From Rhizodiscina lignyota (taxonomy: Eukaryota > Ascomycota > Dothideomycetes > Aulographales > Rhizodiscinaceae): DNA of 64,000 bases. The DNA lies in the NCBI GenBank assembly GCA_010015805.1, contig ML978122.1:1460453-1524452 (forward strand), in the 5' to 3' direction. The translations under genes were made by a program, and so were the position numbers. Shown piece by piece: positions 208 through 17,990 of this stretch. The notes under the pieces are model-generated. The model was not told the DNA's origin, ran no database searches, and worked only from the letters and a program-made list of their open reading frames with translations. Every line of letters begins with the position of its first letter. The stretch's first letter is position 1.

Positions 208-1168
208 CTAGTGGTGGCCATCGTGATGCCCTGGAAGTGATCCGGCGCCGACGCGTTCATTCGTGCGATGCTCCTCTGCCCAGGCGAACAGGCTATCATA
301 ATCTCTGCAGATGTGGGTTCCATCCCATCCAGTCGTAGATCGCCCCGTGGGAACATCCGCGTTAGCGGCGGTCGTGTCTAAGGCCGGATCCGCCGAGCAC
401 TTGATCGCTTGTCTCAGAAATTCGGTACAATGATAGGTGTGCCAAACTTCCTGATCGGGCACCTGCGACGAATTCTCCATGGCCCTGCCGAAAGACTGCT
501 GTATCATGTACTGAACGCATGTTCTGGTCAGCCGATCCTGGACTTGGTTGTCCCGCTTCGCCACTTACCAAGCAATGAAGCTGATGGAAAACCGAGACAA
601 CGTAGATGTCCTCGGACCCATCTTTCCGGCCGGTTGGGACATTCACAAATCCTCGGCCCCCTTGCTTTGCTATCAGCTGTTTGTCACATCGTGGGGCATA
701 ACGCGATTGTCTCCTTACTAGGCATGTCTGCTTCCCATACAGCTTCCACTTCCGCTGTAATTTCAGTGACAGTTACAGCCTCAAATTTCTTGGCCACTAG
801 AGGATCTAAATGTAGCACTTCATTAGATACGTAGCTCCTTGGAATATTCAAATGGTACACTTACAGTCAGGTGCCAGGAGAAGGTTCTCAGGATTAAGGC
901 TTTGCGAAAGTGAAGGCGATGACAGTGGCAGCTGTACAGCAACTTTGATAAGAGGGAAAAGTAGAAGACCCAGGAGAATTACACAACAAGCAGTGAGAAT
1001 TCTGATTTGTCGGCAGAGCTTCAAAACAAGTCGATTCTCATCGTGTGGGAAGTCCTCAGTGGAGTCGCCGCTCACCGGGCTGTAGGATTCTTTCCACAAA
1101 TGAGAAAATGGGTTTGACCGAACAGCAGGATACATTTTCAGAGACGTGACGATGAAGAAACTTGACAA
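208..1168 (-). CDS. UstYa-like (DUF3328) RiPP oxidase
   Basis: UstYa-family proteins are membrane-anchored, copper-dependent oxidases that install side-chain crosslinks or hydroxylations on ribosomal peptides of the ustiloxin/phomopsin/asperipin (dikaritin) class. The spliced model is complement(208..510, 569..669, 719..796, 865..1168), about 261 aa. An in-frame ATG at 1135 would shorten it by 11 residues. All introns are GT-AG; the acceptor at 670 is the least certain. Visible features are a cytosolic N-terminus, one transmembrane helix (LTACCVILLGLLLFPLI), then a lumenal domain with the two family motifs HQLHC and HTYHC. After these come FLRQAIKC, the GWDGTHICRDYDSL block and a His-rich tail. 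Both HxxHC motifs survive splicing, so the gene looks intact. It is divergent from the repeat-peptide precursor, with about 560 bp between them. The family call is firm; the exact reaction is inference. Confidence 0.9.
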
Positions 1169-1729
1169 TGTTCAGGTATGAAAGATGCGGACTTGTTGAC
1201 AGAAAGAGAGTATCGTTTATAGAATCCTAGACAGAGCTCTGACATGTTTTTATAACGTCAAGCTCAACTCTAGGGGTATGGTAAGGAACATCCCCCTCTT
1301 AAAATTGGCCACAACTCCTCCGTCTGTGTCCCACGCGAGACCTGGCAATCACCGTTGCAAGGTATCCATACAATGATACCGGATTCACCGTCGACGTCCG
1401 ATGTATGTTGGAACCAGGGTTCACCACTCTATCTCACCGCCAACCTGTCTGAATGCTACGCATAGGCACTGCATCGAGGCACTATACCTCTTCTCGCAAG
1501 ATCATCCCACGGTCGTCCACACTGGCCGCCGTTCAATGTAATTGTACGATGGGTTGGACAATCCGTCGACTAATGGGACCCGCACCGGTATTGTTTGCCA
1601 TTCCGATTCTGATGTATAAAGAGGTCTAGTTGTCGGCCGTTCCCATTGTGCTATCCAGCTTCGTTCAAGGAATATCTTCATCCCAGAGTGTCTCAGCAAT
1701 CGTTTCATCTCTTCTCAATATCTGCCGCA
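1169..1729. promoter_or_regulatory. bidirectional promoter between ustYa-like gene and peptide precursor
   Basis: This 561-bp spacer separates the divergent oxidase and precursor genes and must hold both promoters. On the plus strand a TATA-like TATAAA lies at 1615-1620, about 110 bp before the precursor ATG. No specific operator was identified. Confidence 0.6.
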
Positions 1730-2287
1730 ATGAAGTTCTCCGGTGCCGTCGCCCTCGTGGCGCTCCTGCAAATGGCCATCGCTGCTCCCACCTCACCACT
1801 GCCGGCTGCCATTGAAGAGAAGCGACAGAGTCCCGACTTGGGTACCTACGTCTACTTCAAGCGTGAGGCTGAGGCTTCCGCTGAAGAGAAGCGCCAAAGC
1901 CCGGACCTAGGAACCTACGTCTACTTCAAGCGCGAGGCTGAGGCCGAAGAGAAACGCCAGAGCCCGGACCTTGGTACTTACGTCTACTTCAAGCGTGATG
2001 CTGAGGAGAAACGCCAGAGCCCGGACCTTGGCACTTATGTCTACTTCAAGCGTGACGCCTTGGCCGAGCTTGCGGAGAAGCGCCAGAGCCCTGATCTCGG
2101 CACCTACGTTTACTTCAAGCGTGAACCCGAGGCTGCTGCCGAAGAGAAGCGTCAGAGCCCTGACCTCGGCACCTACGTTTACTTCAAGCGTGAACCTGAG
2201 CCTACCGCTGAAGAGAAGCGTCAGAGCCCCGATCTTGGCACGTATGTCTACTTCAAGCGTGAGCCTGAAGCAGAAGAGAAGAAATAA
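1730..2287 (+). CDS. Kex2-processed repeat precursor peptide (KEP), dikaritin-like RiPP precursor
   Basis: Secreted precursor of 185 aa, intronless. It begins with a clear signal peptide (MKFSGAVALVALLQMAIA), a short leader, and then seven perfect copies of QSPDLGTYVYF. Each copy is preceded by Lys-Arg and followed by Lys-Arg, so the Golgi protease Kex2 should release seven identical cores from one chain. Spacers are acidic and begin EA, EP or DA, as in substrates of Ste13-type dipeptidyl aminopeptidases. I chose the ATG at 1730 because it gives the signal peptide; an upstream in-frame ATG does not. The Tyr-Val-Tyr-Phe end is chemically like dikaritin cores, where UstYa enzymes crosslink a Tyr phenol to a neighbouring residue. 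An alpha-pheromone precursor is the main alternative, but the divergent UstYa gene argues for a RiPP. The mature structure is unknown. Confidence 0.92.
   Translation: MKFSGAVALVALLQMAIAAPTSPLPAAIEEKRQSPDLGTYVYFKREAEASAEEKRQSPDLGTYVYFKREAEAEEKRQSPDLGTYVYFKRDAEEKRQSPDLGTYVYFKRDALAELAEKRQSPDLGTYVYFKREPEAAAEEKRQSPDLGTYVYFKREPEPTAEEKRQSPDLGTYVYFKREPEAEEKK
1826..2254 (+). repeat. seven-copy core-peptide tandem array
   Basis: Seven units each encode the same 11-residue core plus Lys-Arg, separated by spacers of 8, 6, 4, 8, 8 and 8 residues. The amino-acid sequence of the core is invariant, but synonymous codons differ: the Leu-Gly pair is TTG-GGT in copy 1, CTA-GGA in copy 2 and CTC-GGC in copies 5 and 6. 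Copies 5 and 6 are the most alike, which suggests a recent duplication. Confidence 0.97.
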
Positions 2288-3722: not shown

Positions 3723-4970
3723 CTACTTGTTTGTTTCGTCATTGGGCGTATCGCGGAAGTAGTCTACTTCCATCTTGCCCTCCTCTTCCCTTCCTAAACG
3801 TTGAATCTCCCTCGTCAATTCCTTGTGCTCTTGACAAAGCTCCAGACACTGGGACTCGCCCTTCTTCAGGGTTCCTGCCGAAGATTGAATCTGATTCTTT
3901 ATCCAATTCCTCTCCGATCTCAGCTTGATGATCTTGGGATCACGGCGAATGCGCCTTGCGTGCTGGATACACCGACTATTCATGCTGATCGGCGCCAACG
4001 GATCTCGCATACTCTTACGAGCCGCTTGTCAAGGCCCTCCTGCATCGGACTAGCCAAGGTGACCTGTTGCAGGCCACCAATAAGGTCAGACTGTAGTGTC
4101 TCTCGAATCCGTGTTCCCAGACTGACTCAAGGCTTTCATCCGTCAGGGCGACGAAACTCGCTGGTGAAAGTAAACTCTGAACGATAAAGGACTATATGAA
4201 GAAAGGGAAGCTGACTGTTTACCTTGTTTGCGGCCCAGCGTCTGTATACTGCATAGAAACTTTTTTCCCACTCGTAACCAACCCTTCGGAGGCGTGCTTC
4301 AGTGCAACATCGCTGACGTCGTAGGTCGTGGGCTTCACTGGGTCTAGTTTCCATTCTTCTGCAGTCCGTTCTATACTCCGGAGAGCATGGACCTTGAGTT
4401 TATGCTCTTTTTAATAATTGGGAGCTTGGGAAGCCGAAGGTGGGTACGGAGCTTCCAGATGAGCTCAGGGCTCAGGTTTTCGTTATTAAATGCGTGGTCT
4501 CAAAATGCCATCGCAACGACTTGTAGGGTGGGGCAGTAGGCCAGCTGGTAGTCCCAATGCAGGATATATCTTGTCATATTGGAATCGTTAGTCTCAAATA
4601 TACTCTCGGGGGAACTAATTATTACCTGTCTATGCTCTTTGCTCTCTCTTTCATATTGCAGAAATTGACTATCGCGCAGGGGATATCGGGACCATTTGAA
4701 TTTGGAAGGTAGAATAACTGAATATCCTGCCAACATACTGTGTTGGAATCGGTGTCGACGGCGATGGTCTCTGGGATATGACTTTTGAAACCTGACTCCG
4801 ACTGGTATGTTCACTGGTATGGTCGCCATTCTCTTGAAGCACGCCCGGTCGTGTGCCAGTGATGGAAGACCACGGTTGAACAGTTGATTGTTGGACAAAG
4901 CAATTGTTGAATCGGAAACAAGTGGAGTGCTTCCAGAGGAAACGCTGGTGAAGGGCCTGCTCATCCGGCC
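3723..4970 (-). pseudogene. decayed DUF3435 tyrosine-recombinase gene
   Basis: Fragments in different minus-strand frames line up, in family order, with DUF3435 proteins, a group that includes the captain recombinases of Starship giant transposons. In order they are a CPTLQVVAMAF block at about 4500-4540; an in-frame stop and then DHAFNNENLSPELIWKL; RVGYEWEKSFYAVYRRWAANKVN at about 4220-4290 (like the family's 'RRGAANAVN' arginine box), given here only as a landmark; an ERHY segment where the catalytic tyrosine is expected; and a C-terminal basic helix region with RRDPKI, HKELTREI and YFRDTP. Several frameshifts and at least one stop separate them, so no intact protein can be made. The upstream limit is approximate. 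Not all DUF3435 genes are Starship captains; family membership is better supported than element identity. Confidence 0.68.
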
Positions 4971-9912: not shown

Positions 9913-11574
9913 ATGGTATGTACCAAGTCGCGATGAGCCATAACGACGTCCTGACTGACCTTTAATCAGCATATTATTGTCGTTGGTTGCGGCCTCGCCG
10001 GCCTCACGGCTGCGATTGCGCTGGCGCGCGCAGGCCACAAGGTCGAAATCGTCGAAGCAGCACCGCAGATCGCCTACGTCGGGGCAGGTCAGTTCCATCC
10101 CACGGATCACCATAGTTTGCGCTTCGTCTAAAGAGTCCCTAGGCATCCAAGTCTCGCCAAACTCATCGAGAGTCTTGCGGAAGTTGGGCGTCGACAAGTA
10201 CATCGAGAAGTACTGCACAGAGCCTGTGGATCTCCGTATGATGCGATGGGAGAATGGCAAGAAGCTTGTCGAATGTCCACTCAAGAAGCCCTCCCATGAC
10301 GAGTACGGATCGCCTTACTGGTGAGTTCGATATGGCTCCTCATCGTTACGGACCGTAGCTTACCCTTGGCCAGGCACGTTCACCGCGCCGATTTCCACCG
10401 CGGTCTACTCGAGTGCGCTCTGGAGCTGGGAATTGTAACGCACCTCGATAACCGCATCGTCGACATTGACGCTGAGGCTCCATCATTGACTAGCCATACT
10501 GGCAGGCGCTTCACTGCAGACCTTATCGTGGCTTCTGACGGTTGGTAGACACCCGCGATGTTCTGAGAGAGCTAGTACTTATGACTTTTACAGGACTGAA
10601 TTCGAAATGCCGTGAGGTTGTCGTCGGCCACGCTAGTCCTCCGATTCCAACCGGCCAGATGGTGTACCGAGTTACGATTCCAGCGCGGAAGCTTAAGGGC
10701 ATCCCTGGGCTCGAGGAGATGATCACAACTCCGAGAAACAACCATTGGATTGGTCCATACGGAACAATCCTGAGTTACCTGCTTGAAGGTATCAACGAGA
10801 CGCTAGTGAACTTGGTCATGACGTACGTCTGCTCTTCTATGATGACAAGGTCTCTTACCGCATACTGACGAGACGAAGGATCGATGTAAACGGCAGAATG
10901 CCAGACGGTGTCAACCAAAGACTCAGTTCTGCAGACGCTGCACGTGCTGCATTCAAGGGATGGGACCCTCGGGTGGACCAGATGCTGGAGCACGCCGAGC
11001 ATGTTCTCGAATGGAGGGTAAGATTCGCCTTGTCGCGGGTTCCTCATGGATCTCGAAGCTAACATGAGCGCAGTTGTTCACCCATCACGAGATCCCATCG
11101 TGGGCGCATTCGTCGAAGAAGCTCATTATCATCGGCGACGCCTGCCACGCCATGACCCCCTATCTCGCACAAGGCGCCGCTATGGGTATCGAAGACGCAG
11201 CGATCTTGGGCGGTCTCTTGGAGAAGTATCCTACTATGGATACGATCGGAAAGGTCATCACGCTCTACGAAAGGCTTCGCATCAAGCGTACGGCCCGCGT
11301 TGCCGAGGCCTCCATCGACTCCCGCTACTTTACGCAGATGCCCGACGGCCCGAAACAGGAGGAGCGCGACGCCTGGCTCGTCGAGCACCCGGGCATTTGG
11401 AAGGGCCACATCAACATCCGCAGCCGCAAAGAGTTCCTCGACTGGCTGTTCGGATATGATGCGTACAAAGCCCTTAACGAGGCGATTCAGGCGGAAGAAG
11501 GTGGTGACTCGGCGGGTAAGGGAACTTCCATGGGCGTACACTCGCACGTCGCTGAGATCATCTCTGAAGCGTAA
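9913..11574 (+). CDS. FAD-dependent monooxygenase, salicylate-hydroxylase type
   Basis: Class A flavoprotein monooxygenase, 444 aa in the model 9913..9915, 9970..10087, 10143..10320, 10374..10540, 10594..10822, 10879..11017, 11074..11574. The first coding exon is just the ATG. Motifs are HIIVVGCGLAGLTAAIAL (FAD dinucleotide fold at the N-terminus), the linker PNSSRVL, the internal LIVASDGLNS segment (DG motif) and IIIGDACHAMTPYLAQGA (second FAD motif). These are typical of salicylate or hydroxybenzoate hydroxylases, which hydroxylate, and may decarboxylate, phenolic acids with NAD(P)H. It is divergent from the dienelactone hydrolase and close to an MFS transporter and a zinc-cluster regulator, which supports a small aromatic-catabolism cluster. 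No ring-cleavage dioxygenase is visible nearby, so the substrate and the full route remain inference. Confidence 0.9.
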
Positions 11575-12154
11575 TGCTCCCCGCCTTCACCAAACCTTCA
11601 AGACGACAGTGGGATTTCGCATGCTTTGTACGATGTGCTTTTTTGGACTAAAATACCCAGAGTGAGCATCTGATATAGATTCATCATTCTATGAGGAGTA
11701 TGGTAGAACGGAATGATTCACGTTACTTGTTACGGCTGCCTTTGGAGCAATCCTTCAGTCTCGTCAGCACATTCCGGATCTGATGCGAAGGATCGGCGCG
11801 GCAGTTGATTTTGAGCGTGCGACGACTACAGCGTTTCGTCTTCTCTAATTTCTAATTTGTTTCCTCTTTTATGCTGGAAATTAGGGAATTCTGAAAATGG
11901 AAGTTGGCTGAAACGCGCCTCATATGAACTGGCCAGTAACAATAGAATGCGCGTCCGAAGCAATTGTGGCTCGTGAGTGAGTCAGTGAACGACTGCAGGT
12001 CGGCCCCAGCGGGGAAATGTTCAGATCCTTCAGTTGCATTGCCAAGCTGATAAAGCGTGCAAGTGCGATTTGGGCGAAAAGGCTCGATGCGTGTTCCAGA
12101 ACGCTCGGTGGGCTCTGAGACACAACGCCACATTCGCTATGCTAGCGTTCCCCT
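11575..12154. other. intergenic
   Basis: About 580 bp after the monooxygenase. It probably contains its 3' UTR. No gene is recognised. Confidence 0.5.
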
Positions 12155-12660
12155 TCACGCCGTCGGCTTCTTCCGCGGCATATTGGGCGTCGTGATAGAC
12201 GTTGGATTTTGACTCATGACGGGCTGTCTCTCGTCAGACGGTGAGACAGCAGGGAGCACTGCTTTCCAGTAGATTCCTTCGACTTGGCGGTATTGCTGGC
12301 TTTGTTTCGATGCCTCCCACCAAGTTCGGATGCGCGAGGAGGAAACCGGCAACAAGTCTGCATAACCAAAGAGGGTAAGAAAGCTATCAGAGGTACCGTA
12401 GAGGATCTGGAGCATCCTGTCTAGAGCTTGCGAGCTGAGTATTAGGTTTTCGCCGTTCCCGATTGAACACACACACATCAGCTACCTCCGCCACCTCAGC
12501 TTGCTCTTGGCGCCACCGTCTGCCATCACGTGTAGGGCCGTTGCAAAGGATATCCATGGGACTGGAACTGATATTTACTCGATCTGAGTGCAACTATACA
12601 AGGATGGCACTGCCTTCCATCGCCAACGGGAGAAACTGTCGTGGCATGACTGAAGCCTAC
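12155..12660 (-). pseudogene. possible glutathione S-transferase-like remnant
   Basis: A minus-strand frame of about 107 residues carries LFGYADLLPVSS followed by RIRTWWEASKQSQQYR, which resembles the C-terminal helical region of glutathione S-transferases (the 'ADI...WWE' pattern). No thioredoxin-fold N-terminus could be joined upstream, so it is either a fragment or a chance resemblance. Low certainty. Confidence 0.22.
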
Positions 12661-12786
12661 TAATACAACGCCAACGCTTTAAATAATAATAAATAGTCAA
12701 TACATCCGATGCAGAAAGGATAATTCCGAAGATCCAAAACTACAAGGAATGTCATGAACTCGTACCAGGTCGTGCCGCGTGCGGAA

Positions 12787-14632
12787 TTATATGTACTGAT
12801 GGAAAGACGGCTCGCCAAGACGCCGTCGCCACTTCTCGCCCCAGATCATTAGGGAGAGGATGGGGAACCAAAATACTAGTAGAATGAGTGCAAAAGTGGT
12901 CCAGGCCCAGTCGAATCCGATGGCTTCCCAGGTGACCACGTTGAAAAAGCCCATGACGAAAGAGAGACCGCGTGAGAGATTCATGAGGACAGCGCTCTCT
13001 GGCGTCTGAGGGCGGTAACAATCGGAGACGTAAGCGTAAAGACACGTGGACGCGATTTGGAGACCAAGCACGCCTGTCATCTAGTTAGTAGACAGTCTAG
13101 GGTGAAGTAGTAGAAGTACGTACCAACAGCTAAGCCAACCAAGGGAGGCACAAATGCAGTGCGGTGCTCAATGCACACTCCAAAAATAATCATGCCTGCC
13201 ACCATGAAACAGATGGCCGCGGTGGTCAGATACAGACGGTGTTCTGGTTTCCGAACCCCGTCGTGCTTCTTCGCTAGCCGCGTCATGAGGACGTCCGAGA
13301 GTTTGCCGGCCGTACACTCGCCAATCAAGGTGCCAATGATCAGTGGGATACCAGTGCACAGGCCAATGGCTCCGCTCTTGAAGCCATAGAACTTCGTGTA
13401 GATATTGGCCATGCTGATTGCGGGCAGAATGTTAATGAAAGTCCAGCACCACGTATAGAACCAGAAGGGGAATGCAATCGACGGGTACTTCAGCATGTAG
13501 AATGAGGTGAAGAAGTCGCGGGGTTTCAACTTCCGTTGCGGAATAAGGTTGCCGCGCAGGTTGAACAGCATCTCCCAGTACGTTCGTTCGTGCGTTCGCT
13601 GCGAGAGAAATTCCGGGCCTCGAGAAAATAGAGTCTCTGGGAAAGCGAAGAGCGCAATGCTGAAAGACAGTGCTGTAATGATGGCCGGCATCCAGAAGTC
13701 CCATTGCCAACCCAAATTTTGGCCGAGGAAACCACCGACTAAAAAAATTGTTAGGTTGTGTTGAATGTGGCCGAATGACTCGTGTACATACTAATAACTG
13801 CAATATGCGCGCCGTTGGTGACGAAGATGGTGTATACACCGCTCTTTTCTCCACGCTCATGCATGAAGAACATGTCTATTCCATGGTTAGCTTTTTGCCA
13901 AAGCAAGCCAGAACTTCTCAAACGCATACCATTCAAGCACGTAGTTCCAACGGACATCATCCCGCCCATTCCAATACCATTGATAGCACGCGTGCCCAAC
14001 AGCTGGCTGAACGTCTTGGAGTTCGCAGAGCCGATTTGTCCCACAATTGCGAATATCTGTGACAGTAGCGTAATTGGTCGCCGGCCGTATACGTTCGTCA
14101 GAGGTGTCCAAATGAACGGGGAGACGCCGCCGAGGATAATCGACGTCGTTGTGGAATATGTGACAATCTCTACGGGGCGGTGGAAAGCTTTGCCCAGCAG
14201 CACCAAGCTCGGGTTTGGCACCGCGGCATTGAAAGGGCCCAGGAACGCCATGAAACCGACCTGGATGAGAACACTCCATTTGAGCCATCTTGGCCAGTTC
14301 TGTGATCAATTTTCGTCAGTATGCCATTAACATTTTATTTTTTGGTGGGCTGTTGAAAGACGGAGGAAAAATCAAGCTGAATGATGTGCTCGTTCTGAAC
14401 GCGCAAATCTTTGCTCTACACGTACCAAGGGGTCATCTTTGAATCTGCTGGGCTGGGGCTTCAACGGAATGCCATAGGGGTCGAGTTTGAGGTCTCCGTC
14501 GTGGGCGTGGAGCTTGGAATCGGAGTCGTTGGCCTCCCAACCGCCCTTTTCATTGTCGGAGTACTTCGTCATGACCTCATGTCGTTCAGAGCCAGTGGAG
14601 CTCAATGGCGACTTTGGAATGTAGGTCGCCAT
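12787..14632 (-). CDS. MFS transporter (drug:H+ antiporter-like)
   Basis: Major facilitator superfamily transporter, 520 aa, model complement(12787..13073, 13124..13738, 13792..13875, 13930..14299, 14426..14632). A hydrophilic N-terminus (about 70 residues with DPYGIPL) precedes the membrane part. The segment after transmembrane helix 2 reads NVYGRRPI (MFS signature loop). The middle carries AINGIGMGGM, a long cytosolic loop between helices 6 and 7 rich in Arg and Glu, and LIGECTAGKLSD in the second half. About 12 hydrophobic helices are present. It is divergent from the zinc-cluster regulator at 15519 and lies 1.2 kb from the monooxygenase gene. It may import the aromatic substrate or export a product; the sequence does not say which. 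Confidence 0.9.
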
Positions 14633-15518
14633 GGGATTGCGACAGCGATCCAGTGGAGAGGATGCGTAGGTTCGAGCGAGCGAGCGCGAGGCAGGGTGTC
14701 AGCACGTTGATTAAGGTTTGCTGGCCACGACGCTGACGGGGAGTTCTGAGGGCGTGCGAGCACAGCAATGCGAGGCGCTCGCCTCCTACCTAGCGTGCCA
14801 CAAATCTCTCGCTCCTTCCCCGCAAACCGAATGGCGGGATCAAGGTCACATCCTCGCAGCATGAACGCAGCGCCCTTGCCTGCTCCCCTGTTTCGACGCC
14901 CAAGAGCGTCCTCTGTCATGGCATTGAAGGCTGGGCGACGCACGAGCAGCACGACCGGTCCCGGCAGTTAGCTTGCTCGCTGCAATGCTCACTCCTCGCC
15001 AACTGCTCGGGGCGCGCTGATTCGCCGAGGCCGGGGAGTTAGCTGCACGAGTCGTGCAGCGGCAGCGTGCCGTATCAGTCCATTCAGGAGGAGGGTGGCA
15101 GATGCGGCGCCGCTTGCATGCTTGCGTCACCCCGGCTGCCACTCGTCGCGCGCATTCACACCTCCCCCTCTGGCACGTCTCTGCGGCCGTCCGAACCTCT
15201 CCGCCTTTCGCCTTAGCCGTGAATGGCCTGCTGAGCGGCGCCCGGCAACAGGAAGCTGATGAAGTGCCCGAGCGGCGAGGGGTTTACGCATTGCTCGACT
15301 CGTCCGCTCTGGTCACGCTGCTGCGAGTAGTAAGCTGCCCTCGCACGCGCGGTTAAGTATTAGAGGAAGTCAGCGACCGAACCCTTTCTCGCACTTCTCC
15401 ACGCTGCGGATGTAGCCATCCCAATGTCAACCACTGCGATTGTGGAGAAGACCGCCCGAGCCTAGGCGCGCAGGAACGTGCCACAGTGCCGCTTTCCGCT
15501 GAACCCGCTACACCCGCA
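14633..15518. promoter_or_regulatory. bidirectional promoter, MFS transporter / zinc-cluster regulator
   Basis: A GC-rich spacer of 886 bp between the divergent transporter and regulator genes. Open frames across it are low-complexity shadows. A CGG-spaced site for a zinc-cluster factor is likely somewhere here, but I cannot single one out. Confidence 0.45.
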
Positions 15519-17990
15519 ATGCCTGAGAAAATCGGCGACCGGCGGGACAGGCGGAGGGTACCAGACGGTATGTCAATTTCATATCGCATTCGATGACTCC
15601 AAGGCCCGAGTGGTCCCCCGGAGTTGATTGGTGTGTCGTCGTTGACGTGTAGAGTTGCAGAGCGAAGACGGAGAGCCTTAGCGAGCTGCGATGGCTGCAA
15701 AGGGCGACGAGTGAAGTGTCAGAGGTCGGAGTCGGAGGAAGCATGCGTGAGTTGCGTGAAGGCGGGTATTGTTTGCCAAACCACTCTTCCACGGAAGACT
15801 CGCATCTATGGCAGCGTCGAGTCGTTGAGCATTCGATATCGCGCCCTCGATGCGCTGGTGAAAGGCCTCTTTGCCGACCAAGATACCGCCGACACTAAGG
15901 TGTTGTTCCGCATCGCGCAAGAACGGAATATTTCTATGCCAGATGCAAACGATACGTCGGCCGAGCAGGACCTATTCCAGAACACCTCTGGGCCGAGTGT
16001 GAAGTCCGACTACGACAGCGACCTGGACCTACCAGACATCTTCCTTCCGGTGACCCAGGCCGACAATCCATTCGCAAGTCGCCAACCCAAGCTCGTGGAC
16101 GAAAGACTGATTCCCACCCCCCATGGAGTCTCACACTATGTCGGGCCATCTAGCTCCTTCAAGTTCGCGGCAACCATCCGCAACATGGTCGGCCAGTGCA
16201 GCATGCTGCAGCAGGATGACCATCAGTTACGGCGGAATACTCACGCCTTGCGCGCAGACTTTGCCAACATGAAGATAAGCAAAGTCATAGAACCACGTGA
16301 ACCGGATGACTCAGGCAATGATACCGCCAGCGTTGCTGGTACGGATGTTGCCACGAGTACGTCGCGGACAACGTCTCCATCGAACACCTTCAACGATCCC
16401 CACATGCAGACCATGGAGAGCGCATTTTCACTCCTGCCTCCAAGGAACGTGGCAGACGCATTGGTTGCTGGGTTCTTCGATCGTGTCCACGCCGACTTTC
16501 CTCTGTTCCACAGGAGTACCTTTCAGCAACGATATGAGCTGTCCTGGGAAGCTGCATCGGAATCGACTCAGAAGGCAGACCTTGCATGGATGTGTTGTCT
16601 CTTTATGGTTTTTGTTCTAGGAGCTCAGGCGCTCGAGGAGCACGACGTCGAGCAATCTTCACAGCTGCAGAAGCGCTATCTCGCTCTGACACGTGCCCGG
16701 CTTCATAAGTTGGTCACAACGTCTAGTCTGCAGAATGTCCAAGCTCTGGCACTTCTAATGCTCTACGAGCATAACTCCGGAGAGCGGAATACTGCATGGA
16801 TGCTGGTTGGCTGTGCCGCAAGAATGGCCATATGTCTTGGCCTGCACAGAGATAACACTGCTACGTCCTTTGACTCCATTGAGCGAAATATTCGACGCCG
16901 TGTGTGGTGGACCTTGTACATGTTTGAGCATGAGCTCTCTGTTGTACTCGGTCGACCGTCTGGTATTGACGACGCAGAAGTATATGTTGGATTACCTGAT
17001 GAAACCATTATCGAGCCAGCTGGATGTCCGGATATCCTGAAGTCCTCAATTCAGTTGACCCAACTGCAAATCAAGATGCGGGCGACGCTCTATCCTCTTC
17101 CACGGCAGCAGGAGATAGTTCTAACCGCCGGACACACCCATGCTACGTCAACTATGCTGAGAACACTGGATACTTGGTTTGCAAATATGCCAGCTCATTT
17201 ACGGCCCGAGCACAAGTCGTTATTACCTACCCATCAGAGGGCAATTCTCTTACTTCACGTCCGTTATCAGTACACGAAGACGGTAGCGACACGGCCATAC
17301 ATACTGCTGAAAGCAAATAACGACATCAACGCTCTGGCAGGCAGAAGTCCTCGGCATTATGACCAGGAGAACGAAGCAAGAGTTCTAGCCGAAACCTGCT
17401 GCGCTTGCGCGCACGAAACGATCAAGTGTCTTCTTATGCTTGGTGCAGCAGGCCTTTTGAACGGCACCAGCTGGCTGGACACGTACTTTGCCTACCACGC
17501 AATACTCGTCATTTGTCTTGACTTCCTTGCAAGGCCACGTGAACTCCCGGACACGCCCGAGGATGCAGCCCGTAAACAGTCAGTTGTACAGATGTGCACG
17601 TTCATCCGGCAAACCAGACTTGCATCGACTTATCATATTCTTGGTCAAGTCTCTGTACAGTTCGCGCGCATTGTCGGCATCCTCGACCACTCGGTTCCTG
17701 GGGAAGAGGGTGTCGGTGCCAGTGCTGGTGGCCGAGACATCGTTGCTGGCGCTCCTCACCACCTGCCACACGGACAACCTCAACTCGCTGCTGCTGTACC
17801 GGTAGCCGGTATGGCGGCTCATCACGTGGGGAATATGTACGCTACACCGACGCACGAGACGTTCAACACGCCTGGTGCAATGTGGGATTTCTTTGATCTG
17901 GCAAATCCGGAACAGGCCGGCTATGGGATGAACTTGGCTGAGTTCCCGCAAGCCGGAACCTTTGGGCAAGGCATGAATCCGGGTTACTAA
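15519..17990 (+). CDS. Zn(II)2Cys6 transcription factor with fungal_trans domain
   Basis: Pathway-type regulator of about 792 aa in a two-exon model (15519..15567, 15661..17990). Exon 1 was chosen because it splices in frame into RRRRALASCDGCKGRR, giving a basic N-terminus; an alternative start at 15624 skips exon 1. The DNA-binding cluster has six cysteines in the order C-x2-C-x6-C-x8-C-x2-C-x6-C. The middle region carries the fungal-specific domain: FPLFHRSTFQQRYE, ALALLMLYEH, AARMAICLGLHRD and RRRVWWTLYMFEHELS. The C-terminus is Gly/Pro/Ala-rich. It is divergent from the MFS gene, so the likely targets are the transporter and the neighbouring monooxygenase and dienelactone hydrolase genes. 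The inducer is unknown. Confidence 0.9.

Follow-up and report, generated by a model that had tools for sequence, protein, structure and literature searches.

The window analysed here is a 64,000-nucleotide stretch of the Rhizodiscina lignyota genome, positions 1460453-1524452 of the contig designated C2. At its left end lies a gene encoding a precursor peptide with seven Kex2-type repeats and, divergent from this, a gene encoding a UstYa-family oxidase, oxidase A. The initial annotation had described these as a pair of genes at positions 208-2287, and this location, the precursor ORF and the absence of an internal stop from the divergent UstYa gene are all correct. They are, however, part of a cluster of at least six genes that continues on the minus strand beyond base 1, the left edge of the window. 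Positions to the left of the window are therefore given as negative numbers, obtained by subtracting 1460452 from the contig position, and the features of the locus are collected in Table 1.

Table 1. Features of the R. lignyota locus (window positions; negative values lie left of the window)
Feature	Position	Strand	Details
Helicase ORF	-7611 to -11474		S1, DEAD, Helicase_C and OB_NTP_bind domains
UstYa D	-5800 to -6826	-	Pfam UstYa E 3.3e-22
P0003	-4272 to -5189 (C2:1455263-1456180)	-	stop-to-stop ORF, 306 codons, between UstYa C and D
UstYa C	-2512 to -3768	-	Pfam UstYa E 7.5e-58
UstYa B	-860 to -1992	-	Pfam UstYa E 1.7e-37
Oxidase A (P0004), UstYa family	208-1135	-	exons 1135-865, 805-719, 660-569, 510-208; 250 aa
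Shared divergent upstream region, precursor/oxidase A	1136-1729		594 bases
Precursor gene	1730-2287	+	ATG at 1730, stop ends at 2287; 185 aa
Tandem array	1813-2268		spans the core repeats of the precursor
Seven core copies	1826-2254	+	seven different DNA versions, identical protein
DUF3435 (PF11917) pieces, probable relic	3729-4810	-	weak, collinear; 1.4 kb past the precursor
DUF3435 piece	4010-3729	-	profile 267-359
DUF3435 piece	4583-4416	-	profile 89-143; one stop inside
DUF3435 piece	4810-4625	-	profile 33-80

Precursor gene and oxidase row

The precursor has a hydrophobic N-terminus, MKFSGAVALVALLQMAIAA, which is signal-peptide-like as judged by the hydrophobic stretch only. The sequence QSPDLGTYVYF is present seven times, with copies starting at 1826, 1895, 1958, 2015, 2084, 2153 and 2222, all flanked on either side by KR, and the spacers between the cores are acidic (EAEASAEE, EAEAEE, DAEE, DALAELAE, EPEAAAEE and EPEPTAEE). 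The seven identical, KR-bounded cores originally recognized are thus all located and, as no 5-mer occurred more than three times in 2000 shuffles of the precursor protein, they are not chance repeats. The DNA copies of the core vary at 10 of 33 columns, with at least 15 substitutions, and every change is synonymous. Were change unconstrained, silent outcomes would be expected for 21 of 99 single changes, or for 11 of 33 transitions, giving probabilities for the synonymous-only pattern of ~1e-10 (all single changes) and ~1e-7 (transitions only). As the seven copies are distinct at the DNA level and differ by synonymous changes only, QSPDLGTYVYF is maintained by selection and the array is not the result of fresh tandem copying.

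The upstream region shared with oxidase A contains a TATAAA sequence at position 1615, which is 115 bases upstream of the ATG of the precursor. A search of the R. lignyota genome returned three rows, all parts of this same gene, and no second copy of the precursor was seen. The precursor scores above the Pfam cut-offs of two unrelated families, MAP1B_neuraxin (33.6 bits) and Cyc-maltodext_C (28.9 bits); no single stretch passes, and both identities were rejected as summed chance matches to the repeats.

Oxidase A is open throughout, matches the Pfam UstYa family (PF11807) with an E-value of 3.9e-21, and has the motifs HQLHC and HTYHC and a His-rich C-terminus, GAGSLPGHHDGHH. Our own model (253 aa) and the deposited form differ only at the acceptor of the second intron, and the deposited form was adopted because it agrees with the relatives, three of the four close ones having DMP[RK]GRGF and the fourth DMPMGRGF. 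Initial models of oxidase A and UstYa B contained introns of 31 and 38 bases, respectively; in the models that replaced them the introns are 58 and 53 bases long, in agreement with the family pattern (HQLHCLYM; GLTVHHSIHCLN). UstYa B, C and D have the same orientation as oxidase A. The four UstYa genes share one strand, occupy no more than 8 kb and diverge from the precursor. All four models are open, match PF11807, and have a hydrophobic stretch near the N-terminus and both HxxHC motifs, spaced 29 to 37 residues apart. The splice sites of UstYa B to D were chosen by us, the least certain being the first junction of UstYa D, with an AAG acceptor. Proteins of this kind would be membrane-anchored, each with a putative binuclear copper centre. 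In CctR, a member of the DUF3328 family, HxxHC(x)nHxxHC has been shown to make the protein a binuclear copper enzyme, with two coppers bound and activity lost when residues of the motif are changed (PMC12435403).

A fifth protein with paired motifs, P0003, is encoded in the same row. It has a hydrophobic stretch and HYAHC and HSVHC motifs 30 residues apart, but matches no Pfam or NCBIfam family above cut-off; an NCBIfam name is also absent for P0004 and P0007. Alignment of P0003 to the oxidase A profile by hhalign extended over 39 columns that include both motifs (E 0.0027), with a probability of only 11%. A genome search with P0003 identified 11 other matches. Seven of these are located 4.1 kb or less from a UstYa match and four are far away; for comparison, regions no more than 6 kb from a UstYa match make up ~1.5% of the genome. 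All six of the 11 that were read have paired HxxHC motifs. The P0003 type looks, from its sequence, like a second UstYa-like family that accompanies such clusters, and P0003 may similarly be a copper oxidase. Its members occur near UstYa genes far more often than expected by chance and, if they work as such, would widen the fungal copper oxidases.

Relatives in other fungi and elsewhere in the genome

A search of ~5.8 billion proteins identified at least three relatives of the precursor, designated P0001, P0002 and P0011. The first search scored the 8000 candidates with the most shared words, and more relatives may exist; an alignment search (E up to 10) returned P0001 and P0011, P0002 being longer than the proteins it admitted. 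P0001, from Thozetella sp. PMI_491, has four copies of QSPDDGQYIYF. P0002 and P0011 are environmental sequences, the former with one copy of QFPEMGFYVYF and three of QYPEMGYYVYF, and the latter with two copies of the identical QSPDLGTYVYF within 68 residues. The leader of P0011 differs, and its first core is flanked by ER and KK instead of KR. With the R. lignyota protein included, the four precursors conform to the pattern Q-x-P-[DE]-x-G-x-Y-[VI]-Y-F; Q1, P3, G6, Y8, Y10 and F11 are invariant over the four distinct cores, with D or E at position 4 and V or I at position 9.

For oxidase A, the search gave seven matches, itself among them. The close relatives, with 55-63% identity, are from Xylogone sp. 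PMI_703, Thozetella and Scytalidium lignicola (partial), together with a JGI protein; the relative with 63% identity covers 64% of the query. These have in common HTYHC and the His-rich end, and the next matches, from Purpureocillium lilacinum (36%) and Penicillium fimorum (34%), are well below. Xylogone and Scytalidium are Leotiomycetes and Thozetella is a Sordariomycete, whereas R. lignyota is a Dothideomycete, order Aulographales. The contigs given for the Thozetella precursor and for the oxidase relative both measure 247,591 bases and are taken to be one and the same, and the two genes are therefore probably linked, as indicated by equal contig sizes rather than by gene positions. This probable linkage speaks against the UstYa gene being unlinked in related species, an observation that the initial annotation had named as refuting its proposal. 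The search for precursors in Xylogone and Scytalidium, which covered predicted proteins of suitable length having words in common with the query, found none, and these may be missing from the annotation. The oxidase A subfamily and the core appear to travel together.

The R. lignyota genome (33.4 Mb, 29 contigs) has 76 rows of UstYa matches in 36 loci, and the locus described here has the most, with six. In 25 of these 36 loci, scanned with several kb of sequence (20 loci) or a 1.5 kb flank (5 loci), a script picked, next to UstYa genes, nine further ORFs with Kex2 repeats. Their repeats are unrelated (for example, ELYQNPSEKR, QKYDIDPDKR, EEDPFKWDK and NVDSTSQAEWDGGGDFAP) and, with the present locus, the genome has at least 10 loci that combine Kex2 repeats and UstYa genes. 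There are 12 tyrosinase (PF00264) and 4 S41 peptidase (PF03572) rows in the genome, and none of either on contig C2. Two of the tyrosinase matches, C3:509629-510538 and C11:161667-162317, adjoin other UstYa loci and, for this reason, these loci may have the ustiloxin/phomopsin layout.

Kex2 repeats, an N-terminal Gln and EA/EP spacers also recall precursors of the alpha-factor type, and filamentous-fungal alpha-pheromone precursors share the Kex2 repeat anatomy and have a short core that possibly starts with Gln. Alpha-pheromones have, in contrast to the core here, a Trp-Cys...Cys core with a WCxxxGxxC motif, and UstYa neighbours are absent as a rule. The genome does contain a STE2 receptor gene (C2:3034415-3035306). 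A pheromone gene with a WCxxxGxxC(W) core was sought with two DNA patterns, which gave 1 and 4 matches; their backward controls likewise gave 1 and 4. Two of these five matches were read; both are single copies, and their reading frames are unlikely or overlapped. By these patterns the genome thus shows no convincing canonical pheromone gene, which, with the STE2 gene, counts in favour of a pheromone role for the present precursor.

Boundaries and neighbours of the cluster

Pfam searches were made with 15 chosen ORFs to the right of the precursor, and with 8 ORFs and the models of UstYa B, C and D to the left, all within 20 kb; ORFs alone were listed for a further 20 kb leftward. The helicase ORF is likely the left boundary of the cluster, with genes for a short-chain dehydrogenase and an enoyl-CoA hydratase beyond it. 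To the right, the collinear DUF3435 pieces are probably the relic of a gene for a tyrosine recombinase; it reads towards the cluster, of which it is a candidate member at most. In the ORF scan, 3723-4028 scored 27.7 bits (cut-off 25.8) and 4625-4810 scored 16.9 bits; a second scan gave two rows for the relic, both just below cut-off. A weak alpha/beta-hydrolase match, below cut-off, is present to the right of the relic. Further right, at 9955-17987, genes for an FAD monooxygenase, an MFS transporter and a fungal transcription factor are present in a row. They possibly constitute a separate aromatic-compound cluster and are not assigned to the RiPP cluster.

Genes with DUF3435 are the captains located at the 5′-end of Starship elements, yet are more usually solo (PMC12134995). 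The relic is oriented towards the cluster, as for a captain, and the distribution of the cluster over fungal classes is patchy. The genome search revealed one other DUF3435 place and, given two such places and UstYa neighbourhoods amounting to 1.5% of the genome, the proximity would occur by coincidence in ~3% of cases. No clear boundary repeats of an element were found in the 8 kb searched where, apart from the core array, there are only short pairs taken as chance. Starship-type transfer is a lead only.

Proposed pathway, alternatives and known systems

The features of dikaritin, or ust-RiPS, loci are present, namely UstYa proteins with two HxxHC motifs, Kex2-bounded repeats, and Tyr8 and Tyr10 in the core. 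The reading we favour, with a probability of roughly 0.75, is that this is a UstYa-type RiPP cluster in which the oxidases modify the 11-mer to a crosslinked (cyclic) product. The initial annotation had proposed a dikaritin-type locus, and this proposal is strengthened by the three further UstYa genes, the conserved core family and the probable linkage in Thozetella. Its comparison with known pathways stands for the dikaritin type and not for the ustiloxin/phomopsin layout; the leftward extension that it suggested revealed the additional UstYa genes but no tyrosinase, there being no match on the contig.

Entry into the ER, Kex2 cleavage at KR, trimming of basic residues and formation of pyroglutamate from Gln are known steps of peptide maturation. 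We infer the processing, the site and kind of modification, and the crosslink as follows. The precursor would enter the secretory pathway, where Kex2 would cut the KR sites and a carboxypeptidase trim the basic residues, releasing up to seven QSPDLGTYVYF peptides, the N-terminal Gln of which could close to pyroglutamate. The four membrane-anchored UstYa proteins and the divergent paired-HxxHC protein, with binuclear copper in the lumen, would then oxidise the peptide, most likely at its invariant Tyr8/Tyr10/Phe11 end, and the product would be the 11-mer, or a trimmed piece of it, made cyclic by crosslinked side chains. In ustiloxin biosynthesis, cyclisation is believed to follow digestion by Kex2 (PMC6514808). 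Participation of Phe11 is a guess for which the closure of victorin provides a precedent (PMC9233826). By default, we would guess that the product is a secreted bioactive, defence or signalling peptide. The system is compact and constrained, having a single short core that ends in conserved aromatic residues and an oxidase subfamily apparently co-travelling with it, and the role of each of several UstYa proteins on one peptide becomes directly testable, gene by gene.

The oxidases might, alternatively, hydroxylate, halogenate or desaturate the released peptide and leave it linear, a proposal that overlaps the favoured reading except for the last step. The UstYa family has been implicated in hydroxylation and halogenation besides macrocyclisation (PMC12435403), and four or five oxidase-like proteins for a single 11-mer leave room for oxidation other than crosslinking. 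However, Tyr8, Tyr10 and Phe11 do not vary among the four distinct cores, as would be expected of crosslinking sites, and Tyr is enriched in KEPs linked to DUF3328, being present in 65.6% of the repeats of KEPs with DUF3328 neighbours versus 38.2% of those without (PMC7329392); a linear product is therefore considered unlikely. Distinctly unlikely, in our assessment, is a broader proposal, that a RiPP family present in at least two, and probably three, fungal classes employs up to five paired-HxxHC copper oxidases of two families to make polycyclic Q-x-P-[DE]-x-G-x-Y-x-Y-F peptides with a Tyr-x-Tyr(-Phe) crosslink, and was spread by a DUF3435 (Starship-type) transposon. If so, the P0003 family would represent another group of UstYa-like oxidases, as yet without a name. 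A crosslink of the Tyr-x-Tyr type has been reported for the YLY motif of aminopyruvatide, a bacterial P450 RiPP (PMC13192836).

Compatible with the favoured reading, the cluster could also be silent or decaying, unexpressed or lacking a transporter, reductase or peptidase. The recombinase relic 1.4 kb away and the absence of tyrosinase and S41 peptidase matches from the contig are in keeping with this, as are the positions, among the ORFs scanned, of the nearest transporter match, 11 kb rightward, and of the short-chain dehydrogenase, found leftward only beyond the helicase. With all four UstYa models open and only synonymous changes in the cores, a silent or decaying cluster is very improbable. 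There is even less reason to regard the precursor as that of a linear pheromone or signal peptide with oxidase genes adjacent by chance, given a core without Trp and Cys, four adjacent UstYa genes, probable linkage in a second class, the presence of DUF3328 neighbours beside only three pheromone KEPs (PMC7329392), and an expectation, within the limits of our searches, of far more species than four precursors represent; it is this core and UstYa evidence, and not the pattern search itself, that makes a pheromone so unlikely.

Of the known systems, asperipin-2a (aprA/aprY, Aspergillus flavus) is the nearest model, the layout being closer to asperipin than to ustiloxin in having no tyrosinase match on the contig. 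Both loci have a ust-type precursor, an adjoining UstYa oxidase and an aromatic core, and the asperipin cluster has four genes, one of them a DUF3328 gene, and no tyrosinase (PMC6514808). Its core, FYYTGY, is made bicyclic via Tyr ethers, for which the one UstYa-type enzyme is essential (PMC6514808). The cores are, however, unrelated, four UstYa proteins and a divergent fifth are encoded here and one there, and no reductase or transporter was identified directly beside the present genes in the ORFs scanned. Ustiloxin and phomopsin also have a repeat precursor and several UstYa genes, two and five, respectively (PMC7329392), but that branch was rejected for this locus, which has YVYF in place of a YxIx core and lacks tyrosinase and S41 peptidase matches on the contig. 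Four UstYa genes is a high number, as 22% of KEP genes have DUF3328 neighbours, with a mean of 1.7 per KEP gene, yet phomopsin has five.

Victorin is similarly a multi-core RiPP, likely processed by Kex2 and closed through a C-terminal Phe (PMC9233826); its core is unrelated, and the role of Phe here is suggested by analogy. The epichloecyclins (GigA) share a signal sequence, repeats with KR sites and Tyr in the core (PMC6514808), but have a different core in which closure is from the N-terminal Ile to an internal Tyr (PMC9233826). QSPDLGTYVYF, GTYVYF, GQYIYF, GYYVYF and YVYFKR were absent from the 5.39 million papers searched, figures and supplementary tables excluded, and YVYF and YIYF from passages of four survey papers; the tables of the KEP surveys could hold such a core. 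In a survey of 250 secretomes, Kex2 repeats were also conserved across genera, and its four new Pezizomycotina motifs (DADAATXYV[A/V]D, YVW[G/A][G/S], SPPHKT and QKLKVD) differ from QSPDLGTYVYF (PMC6339444). Kex2 repeat proteins are very diverse and, with at least nine other such loci in the same genome, the R. lignyota locus is a further case of a known kind.
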